DNA of 64,000 nt from a virus. This document shows positions 1,669-61,039 of the stretch, piece after piece; position 1 is the first letter of the stretch, and each line of letters starts with the position of its first letter. The translations under genes and the position numbers were made by a program. The stretch spans positions 58,924 to 122,923 of the IMG/VR virus record IMGVR_UViG_3300044970_001619; one strand, 5' to 3'. The notes under the pieces were generated by a model, which made no database searches, was not told the DNA's origin, and saw nothing but the letters and a program-made list of their open reading frames with translations.

Positions 1669-4389
1669 AGCAGCATTTTGAATAGTTGCTTTTCCTACAA
1701 CTGCTCCACTCACATCATAAAGTGCTATAAAATCATTACTTTGTGGGTCATTAATTGTCGTAAGACCATTAATATCAAGATTTGTTGCTGTTCCAATAAA
1801 TCTGGTTGCTGTTATAAGTCCAGAAGAATTAATATTTCTAACAACTGCTAAATCATTTTCAGTAAATTGTACATTACCAGCAGCAAGTCTTGTTCCAGTT
1901 GGGAATTGTGTTGAACCAATACCGACTGCATAATTGATTAACCAAGCATCAGTTCCAAGTCCAGCAAAAGTGCCTTCCTTGAACCACATAATTTTCTTAT
2001 ATGTGGAAGGTGCTGTCTCAATTCCAGTAACAAATAAATTAACTAATGGATTTCCTTCTGTTGAAGCAAGAGCAACACCACCATGATTTGCAGTATTATC
2101 GTTAGAAACATCATTACCAAATGCATCAGTTCTATAACCAAGAATAATATCAGGGTCTGTGACAACCAATTCTTGAACATTAACAAATGCAGTTGTACCA
2201 CCAATTGTGATATTTCCAGTTACATTTAAGTTACGATTGATTTGAACATCTCTAGTTACTGTTAAATCTTGAGGAACAACTAGATTATTTGGAAGACTTA
2301 ATACTGGAGTTGAACCTTCACCAGTTCCACCAGTAACAGTAATTTGATTTGAAGTTCCAGAAACTGACTGAATATAATCACCAGTAGTATCTGAACCAAG
2401 AGCAACACTATTTGGTTGAATTGTTGCTGCTAAAGATACATTACCAGTTCCATCAAAACTGACTGGTGAAGCAACAATATCTCCAGTAATTTCAAAAGTT
2501 CTTGCAGTTTCAAGGTTTGTTGCTGTAGTTGCTGTACCTGTTAAGTTACCTACAAAACTTGAAGCAGTTACAACACCTGAGGAATTAATAGTTTGAGCCG
2601 TTAAATTAGTAACACTGGTGACTCCGAGTGTTGATACTCCGATAACTTGAAGATTTTTAGTTGTGGTAAGACCAGTAACACCCAAGGTTGCTAAAGTGGA
2701 AATTCCAATATAAGATAAATTAGTACCTGAAAGATAATCAATCGTACCTGTTGTTACGTCAAGGGTTTCGATTGTTCCAATACCAGTTACATTGATATTA
2801 CGAGCAATAAGTTCATCAAAAGTAATATCATCAGCAACATACAGGTCACCACCAACATAAATGTCACCAGAGAAAGTAGCTATTCCAATAAATGTAGAAA
2901 CCCCAGAGACATAGAGATTAGTATTAGTCAAATAATCAATAGTACCTGTAGTGGCATCTAAAGTAATGATAGTTCCAATACCAGAAGTGTTGAGGTTGGT
3001 ATTTGTTAGGTAATCGATAGTACCTGTATTGGCATCTAATGTTTCAACAGTCCCAATGCCACTAACCTTAAAATCACCATAGACATCAAGTTTTGAAGTT
3101 GGATTTGTAGTTCCTACACCAACAAAACCACTATTTATTATTATAAATTTCGTATCTAAATTTCCAGAAGTAGCAACTTCTTCAAAAGAACCTGAAGTTG
3201 GAATTGTATAAGTATCAAATCTAATTTCTGCTGCTGCTAATCGAATTCTATCTGGTCCTTCAACTGATAAATCGTGGTCGTTCCCTTTAAATATAAGAAG
3301 TTCGGATTCTTCTGTTGCAGGAGTGTAAATTCTTTCTCCAATAAAGGTGTGAGTAAATCCTCCATTAGGAGAATCTCCAGTTGTACCTTTAAACGCAATA
3401 TAATTTGAATCAGAAGAACCTAATCTGATATTTCCATCAACTTGAAGTTTTTCTAATGGATTTTCAACACCAACACCAACAGAACCAATACCAGTAACTA
3501 CAAAAGGGCTGGAATCTGGATTAGCATCCCTAACAACTAATGCATTCCCAGTTCCAGTTTGAGTGATTTTGAGAGCATCACTGGAACTGTTAACTGTTAT
3601 ATCAGTGATTCCAAAATTACTATTCCCAGAAACAGTAAGACTTTGGGCAGTTAATTGTGTTGCAGATGTGATACCAAGAGTACTAATTCCACTATAATAC
3701 AGGTCAATACCAGAAAGATAGTCAATAACACCAGTAGTAACATCTAACGATGTAATAGTACCAACACCTGATACATAAAGATTACCAGTTGTTGTTAAAC
3801 CAGAAAATCTTGCGTTTCTCCATCTATTACTTTCTAAACCAATATCATACGTATTGTCATATTTTGGAACTAAATTTGATACAAATTCACCACCAACATT
3901 AATATCATCAGAAGTAGAGTCACCAATTCCAATTGTCCCACCCCTAAAAATTGCTGTTCCTATAAAGTTAGAACTTCCAGCAACTTCTAAATTTCCACCG
4001 ATATATAAGTTTCCGCCAGTTGTAGTAATGCCACCACCAAATGCTAAGGTTGTTACTCCAATACTTTTTAAATTACCATTTATAACTAAGTCATTTAAAA
4101 TGTCTGCAGATGCATTAATATCTACATTATTATTAAAAGTTGAAATTCCAGAAACATATAAACTACTTAGTGATGTCGCAGAACCAATTAATTCACCATC
4201 AACATAAAAACCCTTAGCAGTAAGAATTCCAGTAAATTCACCATCTCCAATTACATATAAACTTCTACCCTCAGAAGTTGTAGTTCCTATTCCTACATTT
4301 CCAATAACTTCAAGTACTGTTTTCCCTTCTGTATAAGAACTTATACCAATCTTAAAGTTTTTTTGACGATTGCTGAGGTACTTTGCCAT
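1..4389 (-). CDS. Collagen-like tail-fibre protein, C-terminus beyond the window
   Basis: The gene is open from ATG at 4389 to the window edge with no stop (at least 1463 residues). It starts MAKYLSNRQKNFKIGISSY and continues with beta-rich fibre repeats of the type GIGTTNPTSKLDVYGDFKVSG. One SSFVGNLTGTATTA unit is present, followed by the linker KATIQNAALQG, and from about residue 907 an uninterrupted (G-T/L-Q)n stalk. Such stalks trimerise in phage fibres, so a distal side-fibre role is likely. It is the third gene of cassette 3, 8 nt after the 109-residue gene. The receptor-binding tip or chaperone, if any, lies outside the window. Confidence 0.85.
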   Translation of the reverse strand, partial: MAKYLSNRQKNFKIGISSYTEGKTVLEVIGNVGIGTTTSEGRSLYVIGDGEFTGILTAKGFYVDGELIGSATSLSSLYVSGISTFNNNVDINASADILNDLVINGNLKSIGVTTLAFGGGITTTGGNLYIGGNLEVAGSSNFIGTAIFRGGTIGIGDSTSDDINVGGEFVSNLVPKYDNTYDIGLESNRWRNARFSGLTTTGNLYVSGVGTITSLDVTTGVIDYLSGIDLYYSGISTLGITSATQLTAQSLTVSGNSNFGITDITVNSSSDALKITQTGTGNALVVRDANPDSSPFVVTGIGSVGVGVENPLEKLQVDGNIRLGSSDSNYIAFKGTTGDSPNGGFTHTFIGERIYTPATEESELLIFKGNDHDLSVEGPDRIRLAAAEIRFDTYTIPTSGSFEEVATSGNLDTKFIIINSGFVGVGTTNPTSKLDVYGDFKVSGIGTVETLDANTGTIDYLTNTNLNTSGIGTIITLDATTGTIDYLTNTNLYVSGVSTFIGIATFSGDIYVGGDLYVADDITFDELIARNINVTGIGTIETLDVTTGTIDYLSGTNLSYIGISTLATLGVTGLTTTKNLQVIGVSTLGVTSVTNLTAQTINSSGVVTASSFVGNLTGTATTATNLETARTFEITGDIVASPVSFDGTGNVSLAATIQPNSVALGSDTTGDYIQSVSGTSNQITVTGGTGEGSTPVLSLPNNLVVPQDLTVTRDVQINRNLNVTGNITIGGTTAFVNVQELVVTDPDIILGYRTDAFGNDVSNDNTANHGGVALASTEGNPLVNLFVTGIETAPSTYKKIMWFKEGTFAGLGTDAWLINYAVGIGSTQFPTGTRLAAGNVQFTENDLAVVRNINSSGLITATRFIGTATNLDINGLTTINDPQSNDFIALYDVSGAVVGKATIQNAALQGTQGLQGTQGTQGTQGTQGTQGTQGLQGLQGTQGTQGTQGTQGTQGTQGTQGTQGTQGTQGTQGTQGLQGTQGTQGTQGTQGTQGTQGTQGTQGTQGTQGLQGLQGTQGTQGTQGTQGTQGTQGTQGTQGTQGLQGTQGTQGTQGTQGTQGTQGTQGTQGLQGTQGTQGLQGTQGTQGTQGTQGTQGTQGTQGLQGLQGTQGTQGTQGTQGTQGTQGTQGTQGTQGTQGTQGTQGAQGTQGTQGAQGLQGTQGTQGTQGTQGTQGTQGTQGLQGLQGTQGTQGTQGTQGTQGTQGTQGTQGTQGLQGLQGTQGTQGTQGTQGTQGTQGTQGTQGTQGTQGTQGLQGTQGLQGLQGLQGLQGTQGTQGTQGTQGTQGTQGTQGTQGTQGLQGLQGRQGTQGTQGTQGTQGTQGTQGTQGTQGTQGTQGLQGLQGLQGTQGTQGTQGTQGTQGTQGTQGTQGTQGTQGTQGTQGTQGTQGLQGLQGTQGTQGTQGTQGTQGTQGTQGTQGSQGTQGTQGTQGLQGLQGTQGTQGTQGTQGTQGTQGTQGTQGLQGL

Positions 4390-4397
4390 TTTTGGTA

Positions 4398-4727
4398 TTA
4401 GTTAAGTGTTTCTAAAATACTTGCGACAAGTTTCAGATTAGTTGCATTACTACCAGATATAACTAATTTATCTCCACTTTCAAGAACTAATTTTCCAGAA
4501 AGAAGATTTATTGTATCATTTCCAGCAACTGGATATTGCTTTAACATTTCTGTGTCAGTAGAACTTCTGCGATGAAAAACTGTAATATCTTGAGAAGTTG
4601 TTCCGATATTTGTGACTTGTGCTAAAAGTACAACTCCAGTATAACCAACTGGAGCAGTATAAACTTCTGTTGGACTTGCAGATACAACTGCAGTAACTGT
4701 CTGAAATACATTTAACGGTAGTGCCAT
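4398..4727 (-). CDS. Small virion beta protein of cassette 3
   Basis: 109 residues, ATG at 4727. It is a paralogue of the proteins at 22560 and 29299. Shared elements are an N-terminal NVFQTVTAV-like start, VYTAPVGYTGVVLLAQVTN, an HRRS tetrad, and a C-terminal GKLVLESGDKLVISG stretch. All three sit directly after a beta-helix protein and before a fibre gene. The size and beta-rich character suggest a small structural or adaptor subunit. The function is not known from sequence. It lies 2 nt after the upstream gene, so it is probably translationally coupled. Confidence 0.8.
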   Translation of the reverse strand: MALPLNVFQTVTAVVSASPTEVYTAPVGYTGVVLLAQVTNIGTTSQDITVFHRRSSTDTEMLKQYPVAGNDTINLLSGKLVLESGDKLVISGSNATNLKLVASILETLN

Positions 4728-4729
4728 TC

Positions 4730-6544
4730 TTATTCTCCTCCAAGTGCTAAAATGAATGGTGTCATTGATGAAAACAAACTCTTAGAATAAATTGTTCCAC
4801 TAATTGTTCCTGTTTGTTGGTTAATGGTAACACCATCTCCTATTCTAAAATTTCCAGATTGGTCTGTACTTGTATAAACAACTAATCCACCATTTCTCAT
4901 ATCAATTTCATTTTCTTGAATTGCAACACCACCAGTTACAGGTAAAGCAGATGCGATGTTTGTTCCTGACCCAATATATTCAAATGAATGACCAGATGCT
5001 AAAATACGACTTTGCTTAAAGAAAAAAGTTGTAGTTCCAACTCCAACGGAAAATGGAACACTATCATTTAAAATAATTGTACAAATTCCAGATACAATTG
5101 GAGTAGAACTTTGAATTGAATAATAAGATGGAATCAAATTAGCAACCCCTATTGCAGTATTTATTCCAACATTAGGAGAACCAAAAGTAACTGTTGGTGG
5201 AGTTGAACCATATCCTCTTCCACTTGAAACCATTTGAACAGAAACTACTGATCCATTTTCAACTTCAGCAATTCCAGAAGCAGATATTCCCCAAGAAGTT
5301 TCTGGTGAAGAAAATGTAATTGATGTATTTCCACTGTAACCAGTTCCACCAGCACTTACGTTCACACTTCCAATTGTATAATACGGTTGCCCAAAATAAA
5401 CAACTTGACCATCAAATGGACGAACTACATTTATTTTTACAGCACCTCCAGATGAATAAGTGTGCTGAATGGTGGAAACTCCAACATAAACTTCAAATGA
5501 TGTTGATGATGGTAAATTTGCAACCTCAAAAACATATCCATTATTTCCCGAAGGAAATATAGAAGTTCCCTCTCCATAGGAACAAGTAAAAGTAAGATTA
5601 TTAATTGAGACTCCCATTCCAACACTGAAATTATGATTTTGACTGACAGTAATAGTCGTTAAACCAGTTGCATTATCATAAACTGCGTTTGTGACATTTA
5701 ACGTTGGTATATTTAAATCTAAAACAAAAGTATCAGAATTTTCAGATGCTGCTACTGTAACTATTCCTGTATATTTTTTAGCACTTACTCCATCTGCAAC
5801 TAGAGCATAATTTCCAAAGGATGAGTTGGAATTAGTTAAATCACAACCACCACCAGAACCACAATAAACAGCAATATCATTACAAATAGTAAACATAGAT
5901 ACTAACTGTGCGTATCCTTCATTTGTAATGGATGCTCCAATTCCATTCTGATTGTATTGCGTATAAGAATCCAAAACCATACTTTTAGTTGGTCCTATTG
6001 CTTTAGAACCATCAACTTTTAATCCAATACTATTTGGAATAAAATTAGTACAATTTTGAATATAAGGTGATTGATTTATATAAACAGGTTTGGTTGGATT
6101 GAAAGCAAAAACTGCCTTTCCTGAATTTAAACTTCCAGAAAAAGACATATTGGAAACATAATTTCCATTATTAACATAAAAGAAATCAGTATTTGAATTC
6201 TGTGGGACAACTGTAACTTCTCTTAGGTTGTCTCCAACAATACTAATTTGTTTTGGTAAAGAAATTGGATTATTTTCTATGTAAGTTCCAGCACTAACTT
6301 TAATAACAGTTCCCTCTGTTGCAATTCCAACTGCTGCTGCGATAGTTGCTTTTGCTTCTCCGAGTTTTTTTCCTGTGTTTGAATCGTTTCCGTCTTCTGT
6401 GACATATAAAATATTTGAAACTACATAATCAGAGTTTACTTGTACTGCGTCAGCAAGATTTGCTGAAATTACTTTTATAGCATTATTAGTTCCAACTCTT
6501 ACCTTAGTATTATTTGTTCCTACTCTTACTTTAATATTATCCAT
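4730..6544 (-). CDS. Beta-helix (pectin-lyase-like) tail protein of cassette 3
   Basis: 604 residues. After a short N-terminus repeating KVRVGTNN, residues from about 45 (ILYVTEDGNDSNTGKK) match the start of right-handed beta-helix phage proteins, with the rungs GTYIENNPISLPKQISIVGD and SPYIQNCTNFIPNSIGLKV. The C-terminal motif TSTDQSGNFRIGDG and the ending FILALGGE recur in the 1140- and 914-residue proteins. The likely role is a tail adhesin or fibre-base protein, possibly polysaccharide-binding; no catalytic residues can be assigned. A late-type box lies 27 nt upstream. Confidence 0.8.
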   Translation of the reverse strand: MDNIKVRVGTNNTKVRVGTNNAIKVISANLADAVQVNSDYVVSNILYVTEDGNDSNTGKKLGEAKATIAAAVGIATEGTVIKVSAGTYIENNPISLPKQISIVGDNLREVTVVPQNSNTDFFYVNNGNYVSNMSFSGSLNSGKAVFAFNPTKPVYINQSPYIQNCTNFIPNSIGLKVDGSKAIGPTKSMVLDSYTQYNQNGIGASITNEGYAQLVSMFTICNDIAVYCGSGGGCDLTNSNSSFGNYALVADGVSAKKYTGIVTVAASENSDTFVLDLNIPTLNVTNAVYDNATGLTTITVSQNHNFSVGMGVSINNLTFTCSYGEGTSIFPSGNNGYVFEVANLPSSTSFEVYVGVSTIQHTYSSGGAVKINVVRPFDGQVVYFGQPYYTIGSVNVSAGGTGYSGNTSITFSSPETSWGISASGIAEVENGSVVSVQMVSSGRGYGSTPPTVTFGSPNVGINTAIGVANLIPSYYSIQSSTPIVSGICTIILNDSVPFSVGVGTTTFFFKQSRILASGHSFEYIGSGTNIASALPVTGGVAIQENEIDMRNGGLVVYTSTDQSGNFRIGDGVTINQQTGTISGTIYSKSLFSSMTPFILALGGE

Positions 6545-6872: not shown

Positions 6873-9800
6873 TTATGCAGTTCTCATAATGAATGCAAGT
6901 GCATAATACGGAGGTAAGTTTGCATTTGTTGCTACTGAACCTTCTACACTGACAGAAACATTATGCCCGTGTGTTGCATCAATAGCAATACCACCATCAA
7001 CAAATTGACTATCTGTTTGTGATGGCGTCGCATTTTGAAATGCAGAACGGTCTGAGCGAGATAAAATACCTTCATTAAATACTGTACTAGCACCATAAGA
7101 TTCTGCAATTGGCCAAATGTCACCCGTTAATACTTTACTGGTGTCTGATGTTGATGCTGTATGACTATGAGAAACCAAAGTGGCATCTGCACTACCACCA
7201 ATATCTCCAGGATCATATGGAGAACTTCCACTTTGGGATGTAGTTCCAGTCTTAGTAAGACTATCTGCAGCAACAATAAATTTATTTCTCAAATCTGGAG
7301 TTCCATTACTCCCATTACATAATGCCCATCCTGTTGGAACCGTAGTTCCAGACCACATAATAATTCCACCAACTGGAATAGTTCCATTTCCAACAAATGA
7401 ACCAGCAGTAACAGAACCAGTCCCAACACTTAATGAAGTTCCAGTAATAGAACCATTAAGATTCAGAGAGTTTTTCCACTCAACACCACCAGCTTCATTA
7501 CTATCAGCAGTTAATATTGTTCCATTGGCACCGACAGCAAGTGTTGTTGCTGCATTATCTCCTGTTGCAACAAGAATTTCACCTTTATTGTTCCAATCCT
7601 GATTAGATTTGAGACTTCCCTGCCCACCAAGAGCAAGAATAAAACAAGGAATTCCAGAAGGGGGAGCTTCACTGAAGTCAATTATATTTGTATAAGCACC
7701 ACTAACCTGTCGGATTATATAGTCAGTAGATGGTTTTTGTATTACACCACCAAGAGAAACAATTAAATTATCAGGACCAAGTGGTACAAATGCTGCATTT
7801 GAAGTTCTAAACAATTGGAATGATGTTCCAGTTCCATTAAATAAACCACTAATATCCTTCAATACTTCGGAATTTCCTGTTGGTAAATTTGATGTTGCAA
7901 TTGGAGGTTGAGGGACAAACCCAAGAGCATTTACCACATCTTGTGACTCCAGTTTTGAATTTGACCCATCTGCTCTTAGTATATTTGGAATGCCAGATGT
8001 CGATGGACTTCCATTCACAGCAAATCCAGAAGAAGTTACATTACCACTAACTCCAAGAGTACCATTAAAAGATGAATTTCCTTGAGAATTAACAGTTAAA
8101 ATTCCATCAGAAACAATTGTTCCTTTTGTAGTAACATTTCCAGTATTTCCTGCAACAGTAAATTTGTCAGTATTAATGTTAAAATCAGAAACAGTTACTG
8201 TTTGTCCACTAGTATTAACAAGATTGAAAAGATTTAAATTTCCTCTAATGGTTGAAACTCCAACACTTCCGACTTCAAATCTTGATGGTGTGTTCAAACC
8301 ATTTAGAGTCAATGCACCAAGAACACTTAAATCACCATCTTGATTGAGTTTAAGTTTAGTTTCAATTTGATTTCTTGCTGTATTCTCACCAACTGAATCA
8401 AAACTTTCTTGTCCTGGTGAAACAGAACTATTTGTACTTGCTAATTTCCAAGAATAAGAATCACTTACATCAATACCAGCATACCATCTACGATTACCTG
8501 AATCATTTGAGAACCAAGAAAGAACAACGTCTCCAGGTCCATCATTTTTAAGTTTGAAATGACTTCCAGTCAAGTCAGATCCAGCACTAAGACTTGTATA
8601 AGTTGCTGTTATTCCACTACCAACTCTAAATCTTTCAATTCCTTGATTTTGGAAAACTATATCGGTGCTGTGATTGTGATTTAAGACAAATCCAGAGGTG
8701 CTACTTGAACTAAATTGTGTTCTTCCACCAGGCACAAGATCTTCACTGTCTCCAATAGAAGATATTCCAATTGTTCCGTGAACTTGTAATTTTGATGATA
8801 GAGTTGTAGTTCCAATTCCAAGATTTCCATCACCAGTTATAACAACATTTCTTGAATCACCATCAGAAAATGCAATTTCATTACCATTAGGAACGTTAAT
8901 TACTAAACCGGATTGATATTTTTCAGTTGTCTCTACTGCTTGTATTGTTCCTTTTTTGACTTGATTTGAGGAATATAAATTCAAACTAGTTTGAATTCCA
9001 ACATCACCAATTATAGACAATTTATCTGTTGGATTTGTGGTTCCTATACCTACAGACCCACTTATATAAGCACCACTATTGATCTGTAACAATTGATTGG
9101 AAGTTCCCGTAAAAATTGTTGTTCCGATTCCTACAAGACCACTAAATGTAGAAACCCCAGCAACTTCTAAATCATAAAATCTACTTCTAAGTCTTGGTAC
9201 AGTTTGACTATCAACAAGGTCTCCTGGATTATAAACATAAATGGCATAACTTGTGCCACCAGCACCTGCTCCACTAAAAAATGCAGTTTTTCTGATATTA
9301 ATATTATTAAAATTGACATTATTTAAGGTAATTCCAGATTCAATTTCAACTTGACCAGAAAATACTACGTCCTTAAATTTTGATTTTCCACCAACGTAAA
9401 ATGCAACATCATTAACTCCAGGATCTGAAGTATTTGCAAAATCATTGGAATTACCAATTCCAATTTTATCAACTTTAAAATCTAAAATATCTTTAGATTG
9501 ACTGATTGGACCAAATTTCTTCCACTCTCCATCGACATAAACTTGTCCAATGTAACCTTCGTTTGGAAGGGATTTTAGGGAAATATTACCACGATTTACT
9601 AAATTTGCATCAGTTGGGGTTGATATTCCTACTGTAACTAATTTATAAGTTGTTGTGTCACCTTTTACATAAAGATTTTTAACATTAACACCTTCATCAG
9701 AAGTGCTTACTACTTTTTTATTGAAACTTACTGGTCCATAGAATTGACTTGTCTCTTTTGCTCCATCACCACCCTCAACAGTAATTCTTCCCCTTGCTAG

Positions 9801-12800: not shown

Positions 12801-14405
12801 GTCATCTCTATCAAATGATTCGTTTCTATAACCAACAGATTCAAGTGAAATGGCACCAAAGTTTGAATTGGAGTTGGTGATACTCATATCACCACCAGAT
12901 TCAGTTATAAAGTGTTTTGCAAATCCAATTGCGAAAATAGAAACACATTGAACAAAACCATTATTTGATACACGAATGTGAAAACCTTCATAATCTGGTT
13001 TATAAATTGCGTTACTATTAGTGTGTAATGGTCTTTCACTACTTGTTAGTGCTAGAACATCATTACCTTCATATTTTCCTGTTGTTTTATTATAAACAAT
13101 AAATGCATTATCATCTTTTTGAAGAGAAACTCCAGTAAATTGGGCAACAACCATACTCTTGAAACCATCTGCCTTGTTGCCATCTGCCCACATTCCGCAC
13201 AATCCATATGCAGAACGAATTGAACAGTTGAAAACATAAGGAGACGCAGAACTTACACTATCTGATTCAATTGTTACGATTCCAGTTTCATAATCTGCAA
13301 CATCGGGGTTCGGATTTGATGGGGAAGACGTTGAAGTATAAGTAAAAGTAGAGACTCCAACGACTTCTCTAACTGTAAATGAACCGTTAAATGCAGAAGC
13401 ATCTGTGGTAATTCCAGAAATTAAAACAGGACTATCCACAAAAAGACCGTGAGGAAGTTCCTCTCCAGTTTGAAGATTTTTAGTTGTAACTTTAATTACA
13501 TTAGTTGCTTGTGTAACTCCATCTCCACCACTGATACTTGAAATGCCAAGTGGATTTGCCTGCAATTCACCAACAATTCTAAATTCATCTTTAGATGGTT
13601 CAAAATCATCAAGAGTTGGATAATCAAGAACTCCTCGTCCTGTAATATCACCATATGCTTTTGCGACCTTGTAATAATACATATCAAGGTCAGTTAAATC
13701 AGTCTGCTCCGTACCAAGAGCAACTTTATTCACACCATCTGCATAAGCGAACGAAACTACTTTATGGTGTGAAAAATTAGGAACAAAACGATTGTCTGTA
13801 TAATCACTAAATACCGTCTTTGTTTGGTCTGCATCTAAGAATGTGAAGGTACTGAAGTAGCAAGTACCAGTTACATTAAAAATGCTTGTGTTATCAACAG
13901 AAGAATCCTCAGGATTTGGTACATAAAGAGGACGAATCTTTGTTTTTCTTAAATCATATCCAATAATTGAAGTTCCACGAGGTAGAATTGCACCACCAAG
14001 AACTGAGTTAAATTTATATAAATCGTTATTTGTATCTAAAATATTATAATTTGAATTTTCATTTAGTTCTGGTAAATTAACTTCAGTCCAAGTTGATGTA
14101 CCTGTTCTTTTTTTATAAATCGCATTGGAACCTTGCTTTGCGATTGAAAAACCAGGTCTATTATCAATGTAATGAGTTCCCGGATAGACTAATATAGTCG
14201 TTCTGTCAATTCTATCGTTGTTTTTGCCACTTTGATATGAAAATCTTGCAGCTTCTATTAATGCTCTTTGAATTGTCTTAAATGGACGAGTTAAAGAATT
14301 GCCTTGATTTTCGTAACTATCTGTAGCATCAAAATCTGATGGATTTACATAAAGAATATTTCCTTCAGCATTCTTTAAAAAATTCTCTAATCTTGACAGA
14401 GGCAT
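6873..14405 (-). CDS. Giant 2510-residue tail-fibre protein with C-terminal collar domain
   Basis: It begins MPLSRLENFLKNAEGNILYV. The first 550 or so residues look like a right-handed beta-helix (KTIQRALIEAARF, ILVYPGTHYIDNRPG). The middle is a long beta-rich fibre with GIGTTNPTDKLSIIGD-type repeats. About 170 C-terminal residues form a phage tail-collar domain (IPVGGIIMWSGTTVPTGWAL and CNG..GTPDLRNKFIV), ending in NLPPYYALAFIMRTA, as in tip domains of T4 gp12-like and microcystin-dependent-protein families. The likely role is a long adhesive fibre acting in host recognition. It has a late box 30 nt upstream. It is by far the longest gene here. Confidence 0.9.
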   Translation of the reverse strand: MPLSRLENFLKNAEGNILYVNPSDFDATDSYENQGNSLTRPFKTIQRALIEAARFSYQSGKNNDRIDRTTILVYPGTHYIDNRPGFSIAKQGSNAIYKKRTGTSTWTEVNLPELNENSNYNILDTNNDLYKFNSVLGGAILPRGTSIIGYDLRKTKIRPLYVPNPEDSSVDNTSIFNVTGTCYFSTFTFLDADQTKTVFSDYTDNRFVPNFSHHKVVSFAYADGVNKVALGTEQTDLTDLDMYYYKVAKAYGDITGRGVLDYPTLDDFEPSKDEFRIVGELQANPLGISSISGGDGVTQATNVIKVTTKNLQTGEELPHGLFVDSPVLISGITTDASAFNGSFTVREVVGVSTFTYTSTSSPSNPNPDVADYETGIVTIESDSVSSASPYVFNCSIRSAYGLCGMWADGNKADGFKSMVVAQFTGVSLQKDDNAFIVYNKTTGKYEGNDVLALTSSERPLHTNSNAIYKPDYEGFHIRVSNNGFVQCVSIFAIGFAKHFITESGGDMSITNSNSNFGAISLESVGYRNESFDRDDVGYITHIIPPKEVDELESNINWISFDVPKTISVGLTERLYLYNYKNKEVSPSKDVDGFKIGAKTNDTLNLNIVIGTAQTVYSSPILMPVVSGVGVTARKSYTVSRSGNLNQISNNVLTLNANHQLINGESVRIFSDTGEVPNGLTAGVVAYAITTGLAVNQVKLAYSLNDAIAENEIEGINDRGGVLTIVSSVTDKKPGDIGSPIQYDDVNGQWYILSSNSSDNQIFPAIVGFGTTSLGNETSSTFVKRKLDNRSIQDRIYRLRYVVPKEYTNARPPQAGFVLQESKTVNISPISFDYTQSITEQTPPAYLRNEKIIKNATVGAVSGGKQTVTITTEKPHKFFTGDKVKVQRIKSENNPTAVGITSTYNGSYVIASVPSSKTFTYEISGVKINPGTFTNQVDERDTNQERSQIPLVSREEYENDFYIYRVDTIKSHIPGLNGQDGIYHLIVLSSNVSPSSDIGYNLSSKSFNQDVRNLYPQIDRDNFNSDPSESVTYADASVIGKVVTDDKRKSVTRETINTFLKNSNVGFGITGVVVSGTGNTTVTIHTNVEHNFNSIKSISVKNPTGAGTSGAGYGNTTIYSSNLIGGTGQGASLYVPVIGSTGTINTSSIKIVDVGSVYSVGDVLDISGPSGITPTIYAKAEVLEINNNIGDALEIRGFNTTNLDGVYRITNVPSSKSIEIYVPSGVPSYQSNTNGRIPVAVLSAEGIGINSFRFDSTVTGIVTVTTNNSHGLLRGNKFTIVGSGHTIYDKTFVVKENVGLNTFTFNVGVVTQTKSSTTGTLLKHSISSNELVLSRGEDTLGSRASYFYAGITTTLSSTILVDSTSITLTSSKGFDRGDYVVINNEIIRLANSTTSNTFNALRGRFSTFKTTAEAGTQVKKINVMPMEVRRPSFMRASGHTFEYLGYGPGNYSTGMPQKQTRILTEDDVLVSQARKQKGGVVVYTGMNDVGEFYSGAKKLSSSTGEEKIVEAPILSYTGDDAEGTNTNKLDVTFDNILARGRITVEGGDGAKETSQFYGPVSFNKKVVSTSDEGVNVKNLYVKGDTTTYKLVTVGISTPTDANLVNRGNISLKSLPNEGYIGQVYVDGEWKKFGPISQSKDILDFKVDKIGIGNSNDFANTSDPGVNDVAFYVGGKSKFKDVVFSGQVEIESGITLNNVNFNNINIRKTAFFSGAGAGGTSYAIYVYNPGDLVDSQTVPRLRSRFYDLEVAGVSTFSGLVGIGTTIFTGTSNQLLQINSGAYISGSVGIGTTNPTDKLSIIGDVGIQTSLNLYSSNQVKKGTIQAVETTEKYQSGLVINVPNGNEIAFSDGDSRNVVITGDGNLGIGTTTLSSKLQVHGTIGISSIGDSEDLVPGGRTQFSSSSTSGFVLNHNHSTDIVFQNQGIERFRVGSGITATYTSLSAGSDLTGSHFKLKNDGPGDVVLSWFSNDSGNRRWYAGIDVSDSYSWKLASTNSSVSPGQESFDSVGENTARNQIETKLKLNQDGDLSVLGALTLNGLNTPSRFEVGSVGVSTIRGNLNLFNLVNTSGQTVTVSDFNINTDKFTVAGNTGNVTTKGTIVSDGILTVNSQGNSSFNGTLGVSGNVTSSGFAVNGSPSTSGIPNILRADGSNSKLESQDVVNALGFVPQPPIATSNLPTGNSEVLKDISGLFNGTGTSFQLFRTSNAAFVPLGPDNLIVSLGGVIQKPSTDYIIRQVSGAYTNIIDFSEAPPSGIPCFILALGGQGSLKSNQDWNNKGEILVATGDNAATTLAVGANGTILTADSNEAGGVEWKNSLNLNGSITGTSLSVGTGSVTAGSFVGNGTIPVGGIIMWSGTTVPTGWALCNGSNGTPDLRNKFIVAADSLTKTGTTSQSGSSPYDPGDIGGSADATLVSHSHTASTSDTSKVLTGDIWPIAESYGASTVFNEGILSRSDRSAFQNATPSQTDSQFVDGGIAIDATHGHNVSVSVEGSVATNANLPPYYALAFIMRTA

Positions 14406-14434
14406 TTTATTAGCACTATAATCTTTTATAGTTG

Positions 14435-14818: not shown

Positions 14819-14992
14819 TCAATTTGAATATGTCAATTCACCACGAAGTTCTGCCAATTTTGCTTCCGCAAGACATTGAACGCAAGTCCAATATGTTTCA
14901 CCACTAATGGGAAAAAACTCTTCAGTGAAATGAGATGCAACGTCCTCCTGCATTCCTTGAAGTTCACGAAGAGTTTCACGACTAATTTGCAT
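14819..14992 (-). CDS. 57-residue protein with a CxxC motif
   Basis: MQISRETLRELQGMQEDVAS..., with a TYWTCVQCLAEAKLAEL segment containing C-V-Q-C. Only one CxxC pair is present, so a full zinc finger would need a dimer or partner. The ATG at 14992 lies about 18 nt after the expected start of the early transcript from 15018-15046. No family is recognised. Confidence 0.65.
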   Translation of the reverse strand: MQISRETLRELQGMQEDVASHFTEEFFPISGETYWTCVQCLAEAKLAELRGELTYSN

Positions 14993-15017: not shown

Positions 15018-15046
15018 ATCATAGCACAAAAACTTTTGGTTGTCAA
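15018..15046 (-). promoter_or_regulatory. Host-type early promoter inside the tail locus
   Basis: TTGACA (15041-15046), a 17-nt spacer ending in TGC, and TATGAT (15018-15023) on the minus strand: a near-perfect sigma-70 promoter. The 11-mer GTGCTATGATA is identical to that of the psbA promoter. It overlaps the last codons of the gene at 15043 and points at the two microprotein genes. Confidence 0.8.
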
Positions 15047-15771
15047 GTGGTAATTTTGCCCCTACTATTGCTGTGAAAATAATCGTATCGTTTTTCACTT
15101 TCAATAATTCTATGAATAATTTCCGATGGACACTCAGTTATATCGTCCATATGTCCAACTAACTCATAGTTAAAATGTGGATTGCGAAAAAAATGTGCAG
15201 TGTCTAATCCAAATATCAAATCTTTAGTACAATTCATTCCACACACCCACAAATTTGTCTTTTTCAAGTTAATTCTTCTAATTTTTTCAGAAGGATTAAA
15301 ATCTTTAGGTTTTTTATAATATAAATGAAGTCTATTCTGATTATCGGTGTTTATTCTTTTGAATTTACAATCGGTTATAATATTTGAGCATATTGATTTC
15401 AGCTCTTCAAGTTGATATTGATTATCAACATCTAAAACTAATAGATTACTATTTGAAACTATAATTCCATAACCAGTAGTAAAAGTTAATTTTTTTTCTT
15501 TTTTGAAGTTAAATTTCAGATATGGGTCTTTTGGTTTATCTATCAACGAATATTGTATTTCAAACTGCTTAAACAAATTTTCATATAATTCTTCTTTACT
15601 GAATGGACTTGGAAAAATATATTTTAAATCAGAGGAAACATCTCCAATAAGAGACATCTTTGGGTGCTCATCAGTAGATAAAAAATAACTATATTCTTCT
15701 GATATTTGATTTATTGAATCTAAAACTTTTTTTTGATAATGTATGTTCAAATTATTATGTAGTATTATCAT
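15043..15771 (-). CDS. Primase-polymerase (AEP)-like domain protein
   Basis: 242 residues. The central part reads TGYGIIVSNSNLLVLDVDNQ, then a 30-residue helical stretch, then NTDNQNRLHLYYKKP. This resembles the N-terminal bifunctional primase/polymerase (prim-pol) family, in which a Gly-rich turn precedes an LDVD metal motif and a later T..g..HlYfk motif supplies the second catalytic element. A third acidic motif may be FGLDTAHFF. No helicase domain is attached. It overlaps the upstream gene by 17 nt and is surrounded by tail genes, so it looks like an insertion. The function is inferred from motif pattern only. Confidence 0.55.
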   Translation of the reverse strand: MIILHNNLNIHYQKKVLDSINQISEEYSYFLSTDEHPKMSLIGDVSSDLKYIFPSPFSKEELYENLFKQFEIQYSLIDKPKDPYLKFNFKKEKKLTFTTGYGIIVSNSNLLVLDVDNQYQLEELKSICSNIITDCKFKRINTDNQNRLHLYYKKPKDFNPSEKIRRINLKKTNLWVCGMNCTKDLIFGLDTAHFFRNPHFNYELVGHMDDITECPSEIIHRIIESEKRYDYFHSNSRGKITT

Positions 15772-16267
15772 AAGACTGATAATACACTAAAGTGCTACCA
15801 ACAGACACTTTCCACTCTGATAGTGAAGGAGCGGTTTCATTACTTGCATCTACTATTATAGAAGAAAATCTTATATTGGAACTCCCAAAACTTATACTTG
15901 GGTTCGCTACGTTTATATTTCCAACCGCACCATTGGTGTAAGTAGAATTCAAAACTTCATTTACATAGATACTTAAAGTCCCCGTGAAATCTATTGTAGG
16001 TCTGTTAAAATTAATAGTAAAAACTGTTGGACTACGGGATGAACCAGGAACTACAATGTTTCCTGAATACACATCAAATAAATTACCATTACCCATCATA
16101 TAAGTGGTCCAATTTGCAAACCGACCATAAAAAGTATTAATTCCAATTTGACCAGAACCAGGAGCACCACCACTTGAATAATACTCATCAATTCCAATTG
16201 GATTTGACCCTCCAAATTCATCTTGGAGAGATAACAAACTAATTTGACCAGAGAGGGGAAGAACCAT
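15755..16267 (-). CDS. Virion structural protein, PLSGQISLL family
   Basis: 170 residues starting MVLPLSGQISLLSLQDEFGG, followed by PIGIDEYYSSGG and GINTFYGRFA. This opening is typical of a cyanophage structural family (PLSGQISLS... with a tail-like DFYGK element). The remainder is beta-rich. It probably decorates or caps a fibre. It sits between the fibre pair upstream and the primase-like gene downstream. Confidence 0.7.
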   Translation of the reverse strand: MVLPLSGQISLLSLQDEFGGSNPIGIDEYYSSGGAPGSGQIGINTFYGRFANWTTYMMGNGNLFDVYSGNIVVPGSSRSPTVFTINFNRPTIDFTGTLSIYVNEVLNSTYTNGAVGNINVANPSISFGSSNIRFSSIIVDASNETAPSLSEWKVSVGSTLVYYQSYDNTT

Positions 16268-16278
16268 ATTTGTTAAAT

Positions 16279-16605
16279 CTATGAGTTCCAGGGAAATTGA
16301 GATTCAACAACTAATGATTTATTATATTCAATTTGTTTTTGAATATTTTCTTCAACTTTTTCAATATCAATTTTACTCAGAATCCATTCAATAATTATAT
16401 TTTCTGATAAATTTGAGTAAGGAACAAATACTTCAGATTCAATTGGAATTTCAAGTTGCAAATTAGAAGTCAATGAGGTTGCAATATTGGTTTCTAAATC
16501 CAATCCACTTATTGTCCAGACTACATTATAAATTACATCATTATGCAATTCTGTATTCTTTTTATTTAAAGAATTTATTTTCCAAGAATATTCTATATTA
16601 CTCAT
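16279..16605 (-). CDS. Small fibre-associated cyanophage protein
   Basis: 108 residues: MSNIEYSWKINSLNKK..., with VVWTISGLD in the middle and a helical end (IIEWILSKI, IQKQIEYNK). It resembles short proteins found beside tail-fibre genes in many cyanophages (pattern YtWkI...l......v...W...g, ...W......IQkQI). The start codon overlaps the upstream stop as TAAATG, which indicates translational coupling to the 1486-residue fibre. An assembly or adaptor role is possible but unproven. Confidence 0.7.
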   Translation of the reverse strand: MSNIEYSWKINSLNKKNTELHNDVIYNVVWTISGLDLETNIATSLTSNLQLEIPIESEVFVPYSNLSENIIIEWILSKIDIEKVEENIQKQIEYNKSLVVESQFPWNS

Positions 16606-19600
16606 TTAGTCTTCTCCAATAATTAAAGTTAGTTTTTCTTTAAGAATATTTATTTGAATTTGTTGTTCTTTAATTGCTTCAATCAACAATGGAACAATCA
16701 ATTCGTACTTAACTGCTTTTTCACCATCATTTCTTGTTGCCACTGCTTCAGGAAGAACTTTTTCTATTTCTTGAGCAATGACACCAATATCATGTTTTTT
16801 TATGAAATAACCATCAACTCCTCCTTTATTTTGAATATATTCATCGGTCCAATCAAATTCAACTCCATTTATTTGCATCAGTTTTTTGATTGGATTTTTT
16901 ATATTTTCAATATTGTTTTTTAGTTTAATATCTGATGAATAGTAAGCAATAACATTTCCTGTCGCTCTTATTTCACCACCCACAAAAAGTTTTGAGGTTG
17001 GATTTGTGGTTCCTATACCAACATTGCCATTATAAGGTGCTAATAGAACGGTATCATCTGCATTTACATCAATACTTGGAATACCAGAAGAATCGGATAC
17101 AGAGAATATAGAACCACTGGTAAGATTATTTGTAATTGTAAATAATTGACCTGCAGAACCTTCAAAGGTTAAAGTTCCAAAATTTAAAGTATCATTGTGC
17201 TTGATAGTAATAACTGTTCCAATTCCTAATGTTCCAATTCCAGAAACTGGACCAGTATATGTTAAACTACTTGACCCAGTTACTGTATTAGAGGAATCTT
17301 TATAGACAATTTGATTTGAAGAACCTGCTACTGGTCCAGTAATTCCTTGAGTTCCCTGAGTACCTTGAGTTCCTTGAGTTCCCTGAAGACCTTGAGTGCC
17401 TTGAGTTCCCTGAAGACCTTGAGTGCCTTGAGTTCCTTGAGTTCCCTGAGTACCTTGAGTTCCCTGAGTTCCCTGAAGACCTTGAGTGCCTTGAGTTCCT
17501 TGAGTTCCCTGAGTACCTTGAGTTCCCTGAGTACCTTGAAGTCCCTGGAGACCCTGAGTACCCTGAGTTCCTTGAGTACCCTGAGTTCCTTGAGTGCCTT
17601 GAGTTCCTTGAGTTCCCTGAGTACCTTGAGTTCCCTGAGTACCTTGAAGTCCCTGGAGACCCTGAGTACCCTGAGTTCCTTGAGTACCCTGAGTTCCTTG
17701 AGTTCCTTGAGTACCCTGAGTACCTTGAGTACCTTGAGTACCTTGAGTACCTTGAATGCCCTGAGTTCCTTGAGTACCTTGAGTTCCTTGAAGTCCCTGA
17801 AGACCTTGAGTACCCTGAAGACCTTGAGTACCCTGAGTACCCTGAGTACCCTGAAGACCTTGAGTACCCTGAGTACCCTGAGTACCCTGAGTACCCTGAG
17901 TTCCTTGAGTACCTTGAGTACCTTGAGTACCTTGAGTTCCTTGAAGTCCCTGGAGACCTTGAGTACCTTGTCTTCCTTGAAGTCCTTGAAGTCCCTGAAG
18001 ACCTTGAGTACCTTGAGTACCTTGAGTTCCCTGAAGACCTTGAGTACCTTGAGTACCTTGAGTTCCCTGAAGTCCCTGAGTACCTTGAGTTCCCTGAAGT
18101 CCCTGAGTACCTTGTGTTCCTTGAAGTCCTTGAATACCTTGAGTGCCCTGAGTTCCTTGTGTTCCCTGTGTACCTTGAGTTCCCTGTGTACCTTGAGTTC
18201 CCTGTGTTCCTTGTAATCCTTGTAATCCTTGAGTACCTTGAGGTCCCATAGGACCAAATACAAGGTCTTCAAATGCAAGATTGGATGTAAAAATTGAACT
18301 ATCAAGATATAATGCATTTCCTGTAGAACGGGCAACAGTTCTCAGTAAAGATGAATTTTTATAGTATCTAATATTTGCACCATCATAAGTAACTGAAAGA
18401 TAATCACTAATTTCATATGTAGTGCCAAGACCAGTAACAGAACCATTTTCAATTGATTTGATGTCACCATTATCCAAATACATACCGTAATCAAAATTTT
18501 GATTACTAGATGCTGATGGATTTGTTCCTAGACCAACTATAGCACTACCACTTGTTGATGATATTCTTGATGATATGTAAGCACCAAGAACAAAACCTTG
18601 TTCTGAATAAACAGATGAGTCCCAAGTAGAATCAGAACCACCAGTTTTGGTGAATTTTGTTGGGTCGGAGGAATCTCTCGTCACATTAACTAAAACTGCA
18701 GTCCAATTGGAAGAACCACTAGTTCCACTAGTTCCACTAGTTCCCTGAAGACCTTGAGTTCCCTGAGTACCTTGAGTTCCCTGAGTACCCTGAAGTCCTT
18801 GAGTACCCTGAGTACCTTGAGTTCCCTGAGTACCCTGAAGTCCTTGAGTACCCTGAGTACCTTGAGTTCCCTGAGTACCCTGAAGTCCTTGAGTACCTTG
18901 AGTTCCCTGAGTACCCTGAAGTCCTTGAGTACCTTGAGTTCCCTGAGTACCCTGAAGACCTTGAGATCCCTGAGTACCTTGAGTACCTTGGGTTCCCTGA
19001 AGACCTTGAAGACCTTGAGCACCTTGAGTACCTTGGGTTCCCTGAAGACCTTGAAGACCTTGAGTTCCTTGAGTTCCCTGAGTACCTTGAGTTCCCTGAA
19101 GACCTTGAGTGCCTTGAGTTCCCTGAAGACCTTGAGTGCCTTGAGTTCCTTGAGTTCCCTGAGTACCTTGAGTTCCCTGAGTACCTTGAAGTCCCTGGAG
19201 ACCCTGAGTACCCTGAGTTCCCTGAAGACCTTGAAGAGCAGCATTTTGAATTGTTGCTTTCTTTAAGTTTGTTGGGTCACTTACATCGTAAATTAACAAA
19301 TAGTCACTACCAGATACCTGACCAGAAGTAAGTTCTGTTCTATCAGTTATGATTCCAGAACTAACACTTCTAATACTGGAGATAGTAACACCAGAACCTA
19401 ATGTTGTTGATGTAAGAACCGAAGTGTCATTGATTTGATAAGTCTTTCCTGATTCTAAATTCCAATTCTCGGAACTCTTTAATGTGTTAGATGCATAATG
19501 CCATCGTATAAATTTTCTTACAGATGTAGAACCAATCCCTATTCCAGCTCCATTTAAGTCAATATCATTTCCTATTGTACTTGCAACTGCTATAAGTTTA

Positions 19601-21066
19601 TCTGAAGAAGTTAATACTAATTCTTGGGTAGTGGATGTTGTTCCCTCAACAATCAAGTTGCCAAGGATTCTAACTGTTCCTGTAGAAACTCCTACGGTGG
19701 CAGGATTTATGAGTAATAAATTTCCACCACTAATAATATTTGTAGTAATTCCAATTGATTCAGTTACACTAGTTCCAACTCTTAAAACTGAAGCAGTTAT
19801 AATTCCTGTAGTATTAATGCTAATTGTTGTTGATACACCAAGTGCTGTAGTTGCTGTAGTTGCTGTACCTGTTAAGTTACCTACAAAACTTGAAGCAGTT
19901 ATAATTCCTGTAGTGTTAATGCTTGATGTTGTACCTAAACCAACTGCTGTAGTTGCTGTTCCAATTAAGTTACCTACAAAACTAGAAGCAGTTACAATTC
20001 CAGTAGTGTTTACACTTGATGTTGCAGTTAATCCTGAGGCAGTAGTTGCTGTTCCAGTTAAGTTACCTACAAAACTTGAAGCAGTTATAATTCCTGTAGT
20101 GTTTATATTAATACTAGAATTTACATTATTTGCTGTAGTTGCTGTAGTTGCTGTACCTGTAAGATTTCCAGTAAAACTAGAAGCAGTTATAATTCCTGTA
20201 GTATTAATGCTAATTGTTGTTGATACACCAAGTGCTGTTGTTGCTGTAGTTGCTGTACCTGTAAGATTTCCAGTAAAACTAGAAGCAGTTACAATACCTG
20301 TAGTGTTTACGTTAATAGTAGAACTTACATTGGATGCTGTAGTTGCTGTACCTGTAAGATTTCCAGTAAAACTAGAAGCAGTTATAATACCTGTAGTGTT
20401 TACGTTAATAGTAGAACTTACATTGGATGCTGTAGTTGCTGTACCTGTAAGATTTCCAGTAAAACTAGAAGCAGTTATAATTCCTGTAGTGTTTATATTT
20501 GATGTTGCAGTTAATCCAGAAGCAGTAGTTGCTGTACCTGTTAAGTTACCTACAAAACTTGAAGCAATTAAATTTCCTGTAAATCTTCCAGTACCAACAA
20601 CATCTAAATTATAATTTGGAGTCGTGCTTCCAATTCCCAACAAACCTGATGGGTTAAAAACAAGTTTACTGGATGGAACTACAACTGTTGAATAAGTACC
20701 AGCATTTGCTGAAGATGGAGTCAGAATTGGATAATAATAATTATTCTCGTCAATTGCAGATATTGTATTTTTTGCTACTCCAATGAGATCAGTACCAGAT
20801 CCCACAAAAGATGTTGCAGTTACTGAACCAGAAACATTTATATTCCCTAAAACATCAAGTTTTTCTTTTGGTTGAGTAGAACCAATACCAATAGAATAAG
20901 AACTTGAGAGAATTATATTTGAGTTTACCTTCCCACCGACAGAAAAATCTGTGCTAACAGAAAATAAAGGAGCATTTACCTGCAGAGTATCTCCACTCTC
21001 AATTAATGAAGTTCCTGCTATTCCAGTAAAATTTAGTTGATTTAAACCGAAACCTTTATCTGCCAT
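16606..21066 (-). CDS. Collagen-like fibre with internal lectin-like domain and S74 chaperone
   Basis: 1486 residues in clear modules. About 1-600 is a beta fibre with eight SF(V/T)GNL(T/I)GTATTA units. About 610-776 is a first (GTQ)n stalk. About 777-940 is a globular beta-sandwich (SSNWTAVLV..., YDGANIRYYKNSSLL) resembling concanavalin/lectin folds. About 941-1242 is a second stalk. About 1374-1486 is a peptidase_S74 intramolecular chaperone (SSDIKLKNNIENI, IGVIAQEIEKVLPEAV, LIEAIKEQQ). S74 domains drive trimerisation and cleave themselves before the Ser of the SD motif, with the nearby Lys. The mature fibre would therefore lose its last 110 or so residues. Confidence 0.88.
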   Translation of the reverse strand: MADKGFGLNQLNFTGIAGTSLIESGDTLQVNAPLFSVSTDFSVGGKVNSNIILSSSYSIGIGSTQPKEKLDVLGNINVSGSVTATSFVGSGTDLIGVAKNTISAIDENNYYYPILTPSSANAGTYSTVVVPSSKLVFNPSGLLGIGSTTPNYNLDVVGTGRFTGNLIASSFVGNLTGTATTASGLTATSNINTTGIITASSFTGNLTGTATTASNVSSTINVNTTGIITASSFTGNLTGTATTASNVSSTINVNTTGIVTASSFTGNLTGTATTATTALGVSTTISINTTGIITASSFTGNLTGTATTATTANNVNSSININTTGIITASSFVGNLTGTATTASGLTATSSVNTTGIVTASSFVGNLIGTATTAVGLGTTSSINTTGIITASSFVGNLTGTATTATTALGVSTTISINTTGIITASVLRVGTSVTESIGITTNIISGGNLLLINPATVGVSTGTVRILGNLIVEGTTSTTQELVLTSSDKLIAVASTIGNDIDLNGAGIGIGSTSVRKFIRWHYASNTLKSSENWNLESGKTYQINDTSVLTSTTLGSGVTISSIRSVSSGIITDRTELTSGQVSGSDYLLIYDVSDPTNLKKATIQNAALQGLQGTQGTQGLQGLQGTQGTQGTQGTQGTQGTQGLQGTQGTQGLQGTQGTQGTQGTQGLQGLQGTQGTQGAQGLQGLQGTQGTQGTQGSQGLQGTQGTQGTQGLQGTQGTQGTQGLQGTQGTQGTQGTQGLQGTQGTQGTQGTQGLQGTQGTQGTQGTQGLQGTSGTSGTSGSSNWTAVLVNVTRDSSDPTKFTKTGGSDSTWDSSVYSEQGFVLGAYISSRISSTSGSAIVGLGTNPSASSNQNFDYGMYLDNGDIKSIENGSVTGLGTTYEISDYLSVTYDGANIRYYKNSSLLRTVARSTGNALYLDSSIFTSNLAFEDLVFGPMGPQGTQGLQGLQGTQGTQGTQGTQGTQGTQGTQGTQGIQGLQGTQGTQGLQGTQGTQGLQGTQGTQGTQGLQGTQGTQGTQGLQGLQGLQGRQGTQGLQGLQGTQGTQGTQGTQGTQGTQGTQGTQGTQGLQGTQGTQGTQGLQGTQGLQGLQGTQGTQGTQGIQGTQGTQGTQGTQGTQGTQGTQGTQGTQGTQGLQGLQGTQGTQGTQGTQGTQGTQGTQGTQGTQGTQGLQGLQGTQGTQGTQGTQGTQGTQGLQGTQGTQGTQGTQGTQGTQGLQGTQGTQGLQGTQGTQGTQGTQGITGPVAGSSNQIVYKDSSNTVTGSSSLTYTGPVSGIGTLGIGTVITIKHNDTLNFGTLTFEGSAGQLFTITNNLTSGSIFSVSDSSGIPSIDVNADDTVLLAPYNGNVGIGTTNPTSKLFVGGEIRATGNVIAYYSSDIKLKNNIENIKNPIKKLMQINGVEFDWTDEYIQNKGGVDGYFIKKHDIGVIAQEIEKVLPEAVATRNDGEKAVKYELIVPLLIEAIKEQQIQINILKEKLTLIIGED
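17341..18243 (-). repeat. Second collagen-like stalk of the 1486-residue fibre
   Basis: About 300 residues of Gly-Thr-Gln, Gly-Leu-Gln and occasional Gly-Ile-Gln or Gly-Arg-Gln triplets encoded by 9-bp units. The stalk starts with MGPQGTQG, the only classical G-P-Q-like triplet, at its upstream border with the lectin-like domain. Confidence 0.93.
18739..19239 (-). repeat. First collagen-like stalk of the 1486-residue fibre
   Basis: About 165 residues of (GTQ/GLQ)n. It begins after the linker KATIQNAALQG, which is the same linker used in the fibre at the window's left edge. It ends in GTSGTSGTSG before the lectin-like domain. Confidence 0.93.
19800..20580 (-). repeat. Imperfect repeats encoding SF(V/T)GNLTGTATTA units
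   Basis: Eight imperfect direct repeats, spaced roughly 80-110 bp, encode TTGIITASSF(V/T)GNLTGTATTA with variable connectors such as NVSST or ALGVSTTIS. Close copies occur at 21545-22000 in the neighbouring gene, so the two loci offer long patches for recombination. Confidence 0.85.
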
Positions 21067-26942: not shown

Positions 26943-27251
26943 TCACGGTTTTGGATATTTTTGCTTTATTTTATCAATCTCTGCTTTCCAAGCATCATAA
27001 CCACCATGATATAAGAGATCAAATTGATCAGCAAAAGATGGATATTCTATTGCTCTAAGTCTTTGATATTCATTGTGATCATATTCTGCTTGAAGTCGTT
27101 GCATCTCTGCTTCAATTTCTTCAAAAGTTGGTTTTGGAATATCTTCAGAAAACCACTTTAATTGTTCATAATCACAATCAATACAAAACCATTGTGATTT
27201 TGGTGCTAAAGATGAAATTGCCTTATAAAAAAAGTTTGATTCTATTGTCAT
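26943..27251 (-). CDS. Tail-fibre assembly chaperone-like protein
   Basis: 102 residues. The C-terminal half (EYQRLRAIEYPSFADQFDLL, then YHGGYDAWKAEIDKIKQKYP) is the hallmark of small phage proteins encoded beside tail fibres (pattern R...YP...DQLD.L.H.......W...I..vK..yP), often called tail-assembly chaperones. The N-terminus has FCIDCDYEQL. Its ATGA overlap with the 682-residue fibre gene ties its translation to that fibre, its probable client. Confidence 0.75.
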   Translation of the reverse strand: MTIESNFFYKAISSLAPKSQWFCIDCDYEQLKWFSEDIPKPTFEEIEAEMQRLQAEYDHNEYQRLRAIEYPSFADQFDLLYHGGYDAWKAEIDKIKQKYPKP

Positions 27252-29296: not shown

Positions 29297-29298
29297 AA

Positions 29299-29979
29299 TT
29301 ATACAATGCCAGATACATTAGTTTCAAGAATGCTACAAAGGAATTCCATTTGCAACGGACCCACTTGACCACCACTTACATAAGTGTGTGCAATACCAAT
29401 GGTTATACCAGAATTGGTCACAAACGTTTTTGATGTTCCTACACTCCCAATAATAGAATCTATAACAAAAGACTTTTGAGGTGATGGAAAAATTGTAGTA
29501 GTAAGTCCTATAAACTGACTTGAACAAGTAAATGCAAGACCACTCATTGTGACTTCATCACCTGCTACAAAATTATGAGGAGTTACTGTTGTGACAGTTG
29601 TAATTCCTGTTTGATTATCATAAGTGCAAGTAGAAATTGAAACAATCCCGGATTGTATCCCGGAAAGAACGATTGAGTCAGTGATAATTGCACTCTTTTC
29701 CAAAACCAGACGACCATCAATCAAAATAGCAACATCATTTGGAGGAACTTCTATATTTTTCGCAATCCTTGTATTCCTTGTATTCCCTACTGTTCTTTGA
29801 GAACTACTTGTTCTTCTATGTGTAAGTGTAACTATTGGATAAGTGTTGACTCCAACATTCGCAACTTGAGCATATAACAAAATAGAAGATTGTCCAGTGG
29901 GGACTGTATAAACAGTCTGCTCTCCTGGTGCGACAGGAACTGCTATGGTCAAATATGTATTAAGTGGTGAAACTGCCAT
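29299..29979 (-). CDS. Virion beta protein of cassette 1, enlarged by an inserted domain
   Basis: 226 residues, about twice its paralogues (109 and 117). The first 115 residues align with them (NTYLTIAVPVAPGEQTVYTV, LLYAQVANVG, HRRTS, DGRLVLEKSAII). The extra 105 residues (VSISTCTYDNQTGITTVTTV and following) resemble beta modules found in the beta-helix proteins nearby (VYDNATGLTTITVSQNHNFS in the 604-residue protein). The tail end, MEFLCSILETN, returns to the family pattern, so the module looks inserted. Confidence 0.78.
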   Translation of the reverse strand: MAVSPLNTYLTIAVPVAPGEQTVYTVPTGQSSILLYAQVANVGVNTYPIVTLTHRRTSSSQRTVGNTRNTRIAKNIEVPPNDVAILIDGRLVLEKSAIITDSIVLSGIQSGIVSISTCTYDNQTGITTVTTVTPHNFVAGDEVTMSGLAFTCSSQFIGLTTTIFPSPQKSFVIDSIIGSVGTSKTFVTNSGITIGIAHTYVSGGQVGPLQMEFLCSILETNVSGIV

Positions 29980-52565: not shown

Positions 52566-52592
52566 AAAATTACAAAATCAACACAAAAATAT

Positions 52593-60309: not shown

Positions 60310-60333
60310 CAATCCTCCTTTTAGTATTTCTCA

Positions 60334-60955: not shown

Positions 60956-60984
60956 TCTTACTGTTGCTGTCTCTACTACATTAT

Positions 60985-60992
60985 TATTTATA
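60985..60992 (-). promoter_or_regulatory. Late promoter TATAAATA fused to a terminator
   Basis: Exact late consensus on the minus strand, 29 nt before the endonuclease ATG. It shares a base with the T-run of the preceding terminator. Confidence 0.65.
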
Positions 60993-61016
60993 AAAAAAGA
61001 GACCTTCACAGGTCTC
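60992..61016 (-). terminator. Terminator of the 136-residue gene
   Basis: A 7-bp stem (GAGACCT with AGGTCTC) and a 4-nt loop, then seven T on the minus strand, 23 nt after the stop at 61040. Confidence 0.88.
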
Positions 61017-61039
61017 CTCCGTATCATATCACATTATAC

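Follow-up and report, generated by a model that had tools for sequence, protein, structure and literature searches.

A primase-polymerase-like gene in a tail-fibre locus

What would a primase-polymerase-like gene be doing among the tail-fibre genes of a phage? Phage proteins of the archaeo-eukaryotic primase (AEP) type are known as replication enzymes, and the original prediction for this locus was of a small primase-polymerase-like protein encoded between late tail genes. We analysed a window of 64,000 nucleotides, to which all positions refer unless stated otherwise, from a 122.9-kb virus contig; PsbA/PsbD-like ORFs, picked out by eye, and a gp32 match point to a T4-like cyanophage as the source. 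The predicted ORF is real at 15043-15771 and lies on the minus strand, which had been left unspecified, running from an ATG at 15771 to a TGA at 15045-15043, with many stops across the same interval of the plus strand. In its 242-aa product, labelled P0001, the patterns TGYGIIV...LLVLDVD and T...N.RLHLYYKKP occupy residues 99-116 and 143-155, respectively. The ORF is beyond chance: its frame and motifs persist in relatives with 97%, 48-49% and 39-40% identity, five of six comparisons give dN/dS values of 0.17-0.43, and its Prim-Pol match lies above the Pfam cut-off. The gene and its surroundings are as follows.

14819-14992, minus strand: downstream 57-aa gene, conserved in cyanophages and used as the marker of this slot
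15018-15046, minus strand: sigma-70-type promoter TTGACA-17-TATGAT, 11/12 match, with its -35 box overlapping the AEP stop TGA
15043-15771, minus strand: AEP/Prim-Pol-like gene, 242 aa, stand-alone, without helicase or PriCT domain
15755-16267, minus strand: gene for a small tail protein of 170 aa that resembles an adhesin (MVLPLSGQISLLSLQDEFGG) and shares 17 nt with the start of the AEP gene
16279-16605, minus strand: DUF7936 protein, 108 aa, a member of the fibre cassette
16606-21066, minus strand: long tail-fibre gene, 1486 aa, with collagen-like repeats and a C-terminal Peptidase_S74 chaperone (about 16741-16935)

A small stand-alone gene among tail genes is therefore what the locus holds, as predicted, given its Collagen/Peptidase_S74 fibre and DUF7936 neighbours; tail-fibre genes, and not a replication module, flank it on both sides. 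Rhizobium phage homologues of the 170-aa protein are annotated as tail fibre adhesin and adjoin an S74 protein.

The 242-aa protein descends from the AEP superfamily

Judged from its sequence relationships, the 242-aa protein is a member of the AEP superfamily by descent. Pfam Prim-Pol (PF09250) matched it at 23.7 bits against a cut-off of 22.8, and at 24.5 bits in the search of its own genome, while at a relaxed E value the same profile matched six of the seven family members; the next profile match after Pfam was PHROG 695, DNA polymerase/primase. The profile-profile search that the original prediction had proposed found AEP similarity, with a probability of 95.7 and an E value of 9.8e-9 between the family profile and a phage PrimPol profile (hhalign). 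To guard against circularity we also trained an HMM on 16 canonical phage PrimPols alone, which cannot be taken as an unbiased sampling of AEPs because they were gathered with a phage H103 seed plus family members. With database size set to 40,000, this HMM gave E values of 3.6e-9 for L004, 1.7e-8 for L005, 4e-5 for L002, 6.3e-5 for P0001, 0.0028 for L007 and 0.011 for L008 (L-numbers label viral-contig loci), whereas the best of 350 shuffled sequences reached E 27 and no reversed sequence was listed. The proposed resemblance to AEP/prim-pol domains is thereby borne out. A sequence search of the PDB with P0001 returned no match, PDB profile searches returned just non-significant matches to unrelated proteins, and PADLOC and NCBIfam scans gave nothing convincing. 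The analysis brought up no evidence either for or against the anti-defence or repair role that had been suggested.

The known proteins nearest to it are phage PrimPol replicases whose N-terminal domain is a Prim-Pol domain (Pseudoalteromonas phage H103 gp57, Pseudomonas phage DDSR119 gp34 and, by fold, NrS-1 PrimPol); they share with the window protein TGYG...hhDhD, HLYYKxP and, in the C-terminal part, the order SxH...Y...P. There are also differences: the relatives retrieved are 640-840 aa long, with further domains and a motif III Asp (IDFK), whereas the window protein is a single domain of 242 aa without a fused helicase or PriCT and without this acid, and the H103 and DDSR119 copies lie in replication modules but the window gene in a tail-fibre cassette.

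Structure prediction gave a weaker indication of an AEP fold. A model from the seven family sequences had a pLDDT of 50, and its top PDB match, NrS-1 PrimPol, was non-significant (E 0.44). Adding the 16 canonical sequences raised the pLDDT to 66 with a pTM of 0.70, and the top 12 PDB matches of this mixed-alignment model were all AEPs (best E 6.6e-3), a match that is partly circular since canonical AEPs were inside its alignment. Against viral models it gave seven matches below E 0.001, the best at 8.5e-5, and those with names were primases.

An acid of the catalytic centre is missing from every family member

Catalytic residues were compared in a 23-row alignment (A5) of seven family rows and 16 replicative relatives, in which the following stretches of the window gene were located.

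15421-15444, minus strand: motif I, residues 110-117 (LLVLDVDN), with D114 and D116 invariant in the rows covering them
15307-15333, minus strand: motif II, residues 147-155 (RLHLYYKKP), with H149 invariant in 23/23 rows
15262-15273, minus strand: motif III position, residues 167-170 (INLK), with N168 where Asp is expected
15193-15204, minus strand: residues 190-193 (DTAH), with H193 aligned with the second conserved AEP His
15127-15156, minus strand: residues 206-215 (GHMDDITECP), where conservation within the family is highest

The two Asp and one His sought in the original prediction are conserved across the alignment rows as D114, D116 and H149, and from the homology it would follow that they are placed in one pocket. 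H193 is present in all rows, the small residue of the motif II sxH is lost in most family members, and the counterpart of GHMDDITECP in relatives is mostly G-S-P-x-D/E-I-x-x-A-P. Motif III departs from the canonical plan: its Asp is found in 16/16 replicative relatives but in 0/7 family rows, the residue being N in the window, L002 and the L006 fragment, K in L004, L005 and L007, and I in L008. This placement rests on an alignment beside a family-specific insertion and on strands predicted by the structure model at 166-168 and 173-177. Another register, near G178-N180, was suggested by the HMM alignment and is likewise non-acidic (N180, Ser in L008).

The AEP domain of cyanophage S-2L PrimPol (PDB 6ZP9, PMC8065100) comes from a phage that infects cyanobacteria and shares the superfamily and the motif I/II plan, but by its published description it is set apart as a replicative polymerase with all crucial motifs, including D146 of motif III. 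In S-2L PrimPol, D146 and the motif I pair hold metal A, and all three acids are described as crucial for activity (PMC8065100). The RepE/RepS family, by the published account, shares a motif III non-acid with the AEP-like family, carrying Gln there with nearby acids thought to be catalytic (PMC5862659); an Asp or Glu close by usually precedes the motif III position there, whereas no conserved acid precedes it in the AEP-like family.

Since the motif III carboxylate for two-metal catalysis is absent in every member, ordinary primase/polymerase activity is doubtful, and we regard the 242-aa protein as an AEP by homology that should not be filed as a primase-polymerase. With every known copy missing one of the three catalytic acids, the protein has probably been repurposed and would not be a working DNA-copying enzyme. 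We consider it rather unlikely that it is instead an active small primase/polymerase or nucleotidyltransferase in which D190 or another residue replaces the lost acid, acting in late priming, gap-filling or nucleotide addition, or in the repair or counter-defence originally proposed. D190 is invariant in the AEP-like family, while the replicative relatives have G, E or N there, so that a compensating acid is conceivable, and this alternative would also fit the invariance of D114, D116, H149 and H193 in the rows covering them, the purifying selection described below and the motif variability known in other AEPs. It fits poorly with the family-wide loss of the metal-A acid, with the tail context and with a protein that has no PriCT or helicase domain, unlike its replicative relatives.

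The sigma-70 promoter serves the downstream gene

The gene had been described as ending at a host-type promoter. Such a promoter is present, and sites of this quality numbered three in the 64-kb window against 0.22 expected, but it serves the 57-aa gene downstream and not the AEP gene. A match of at least 10/12 precedes the 57-aa marker gene in 48/80 loci compared with about 0.8/80 in shuffles, which assigns the promoter to the marker gene, and it is retained in relatives without the AEP gene. Only weak 9/12 promoter-like matches, at background level, lie 5' of the AEP gene, a search for a terminator-like site at the gene found none, and no T4-type late promoter (TATAAATA) was found near it, the count of this motif in the window being not clearly above chance. 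A perfect 12/12 site, TTGACA-18-TATAAT, was also observed at 14393-14422 on the plus strand, the strand opposite to that encoding the tail genes.

The AEP gene moves with a fibre-tip cassette

Comparison with the near-isogenic locus L054 delimited an exchangeable block.

15048-16999, minus strand: exchangeable fibre-tip cassette of 1.95 kb, spanning the 3' end of the fibre gene and the DUF7936, adhesin and AEP genes

Downstream of the block, between 15047 and 13501, L054 matches the window at 98.3% identity, and upstream of it, between 21300 and 16999, at 91-95%. The entire block is missing from L054, with 188 nt of other sequence in its place, and the downstream identity ends at the stop codon of the AEP gene. 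A different gene follows the DUF7936-adhesin-AEP trio in L004/L005, and another gene takes the place of DUF7936 in L008. The missing block in L054 and these changes of neighbour indicate that the AEP gene travels with the fibre-tip cassette. Among 80 loci gathered by the 57-aa marker gene, AEP was present in two, both of which had been found before. This sporadic presence between conserved genes, with absence in L054, is a moron trait, but the suggestion of an independent moron was not supported, as the start overlaps the adhesin gene, the search for a terminator found none, promoter-like matches are weak and the gene moves with the cassette.

Immediately 5' of AEP, or of what remains of it, stands an adhesin-like gene in the window, L002, L004, L005, L007 and L008; the L006 remnant is the exception. 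On this arrangement the AEP protein might have been co-opted for a role in the virion, in assembly or in modification, with the adhesin or fibre tip as its target, which we judge quite unlikely; the same low standing applies to an AEP minus its metal-A acid serving as a fibre-adhesin partner in assembly, regulation or nucleotide-dependent modification and moving with the receptor-binding cassette. While AEP always stands 3' of the adhesin-like gene in intact lineages, as the outer genes vary (L004/L005, L008), and overlaps it translationally, adhesin homologues occur without AEP in L061, S-CREM2 and Rhizobium phages, and the conserved nucleotide-site residues likewise count against such a role. 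An obligate adhesin-partner role was rejected, as L007 has an intact adhesin gene and a broken AEP gene.

Broken copies and purifying selection

Searches of viral contigs revealed five lineages of the AEP-like gene, two of them with broken copies.

Window and L002: 97% identity
L004/L005: 48-49% identity to the window
L008/L009: 39-40% identity to the window
L006, broken: 76% identity over 107 residues, 3' part only
L007, broken: first ~100 residues deleted, usable start absent, adhesin intact

No AEP-like homologue was detected in bacterial and archaeal genome contigs; against cultured phages, tblastn with P0001 or L008 matched nothing, and with L004 it produced only weak, non-significant matches to PrimPol and terminase. 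T4-type primase, helicase or polymerase genes were not found in the carrier records, which are fragments. The literature searched, which took in few subscription papers, holds no report of a tail-associated AEP. In L006 we also noted a 141-aa ORF (7412-7834 of that locus) with a metallopeptidase-like HELYH motif, situated at the fibre-tip gene site 5' of the AEP 3' remnant; a Pfam search with it gave no match.

The AEP-like gene is under purifying selection, with dN/dS between 0.17 and 0.43 in five of six pairs. The values were 0.22 (window/L002), 0.71 (L004/L005), 0.17 (window/L006), 0.19 (L004/L007), 0.38 (window/L004) and 0.43 (window/L008); substitution counts are small for the closest pairs, and synonymous sites approach saturation in the distant ones. 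For the adhesin gene, the two closest pairs gave 0.55 and 1.07. It seems unlikely that the gene is a passenger, that is, a captured PrimPol fragment of little function that is decaying at a fibre-tip site prone to recombination: the broken copies in two of five lineages (L006, L007) and the presence of AEP in just 2/80 marker loci would suit decay, but intact copies at 40-49% identity retain frame and motifs, GHMDDITECP is nearly unchanged, and the dN/dS values of five of the six pairs count against it.

A possible accessory role for the cassette

Our preferred reading is of a divergent, nucleotide-binding and polymerase-deficient AEP, made late and accessory to the fibre-tip cassette; taken as a whole, we consider its chances evenly balanced. 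The stand-alone fold would go back to the N-terminal domain of replicative phage primase-polymerases, with the two motif I Asp and the two His of the nucleotide/metal-B site kept and the metal-A acid of motif III lost. Most likely the protein would bind nucleotide, perhaps also ssDNA or RNA, without processive primase or polymerase action. It would be produced late from the tail-fibre operon, its translation probably coupled to that of the overlapping adhesin gene, and would have spread as the last gene of the exchangeable cassette, for which it may perform some accessory function. The invariant D190 could stand in for the lost acid and counts against this reading, as do the assignment of motif III beside a family-specific insertion, the dN/dS of the L004/L005 pair, and the adhesin of L007, which is independent of an intact AEP. 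If the reading is true, a polymerase fold has been reused in a tail-fibre-tip setting, with nucleotide-site residues retained and the motif III acid lost family-wide, and non-structural genes are able to travel with receptor-binding modules.

Other features of the window

Several further ORFs were noted. By eye, those at 59251-60330 and 61659-62741 (minus strand) read like photosystem II D2 and D1 proteins, and between them an ORF at 60380-61033 (minus strand) resembles an HNH endonuclease (HHIVPRHMGGT). GIY-YIG nuclease-like ORFs, also recognised by eye from YYTYAYLRED or YYTYAWLRED followed by a YIGKGKG-like sequence, look scattered across the genome, lying at 52017-52577 in the window and at 4331-5017 and 12696-13400 in L016, all on the minus strand. 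Several fibre genes of the genome, at 16606-21066 and 27251-29317 (minus strand), contain long stretches of collagen-like GTQGTQG/LQG repeats, opposite which long antisense frames stay open.
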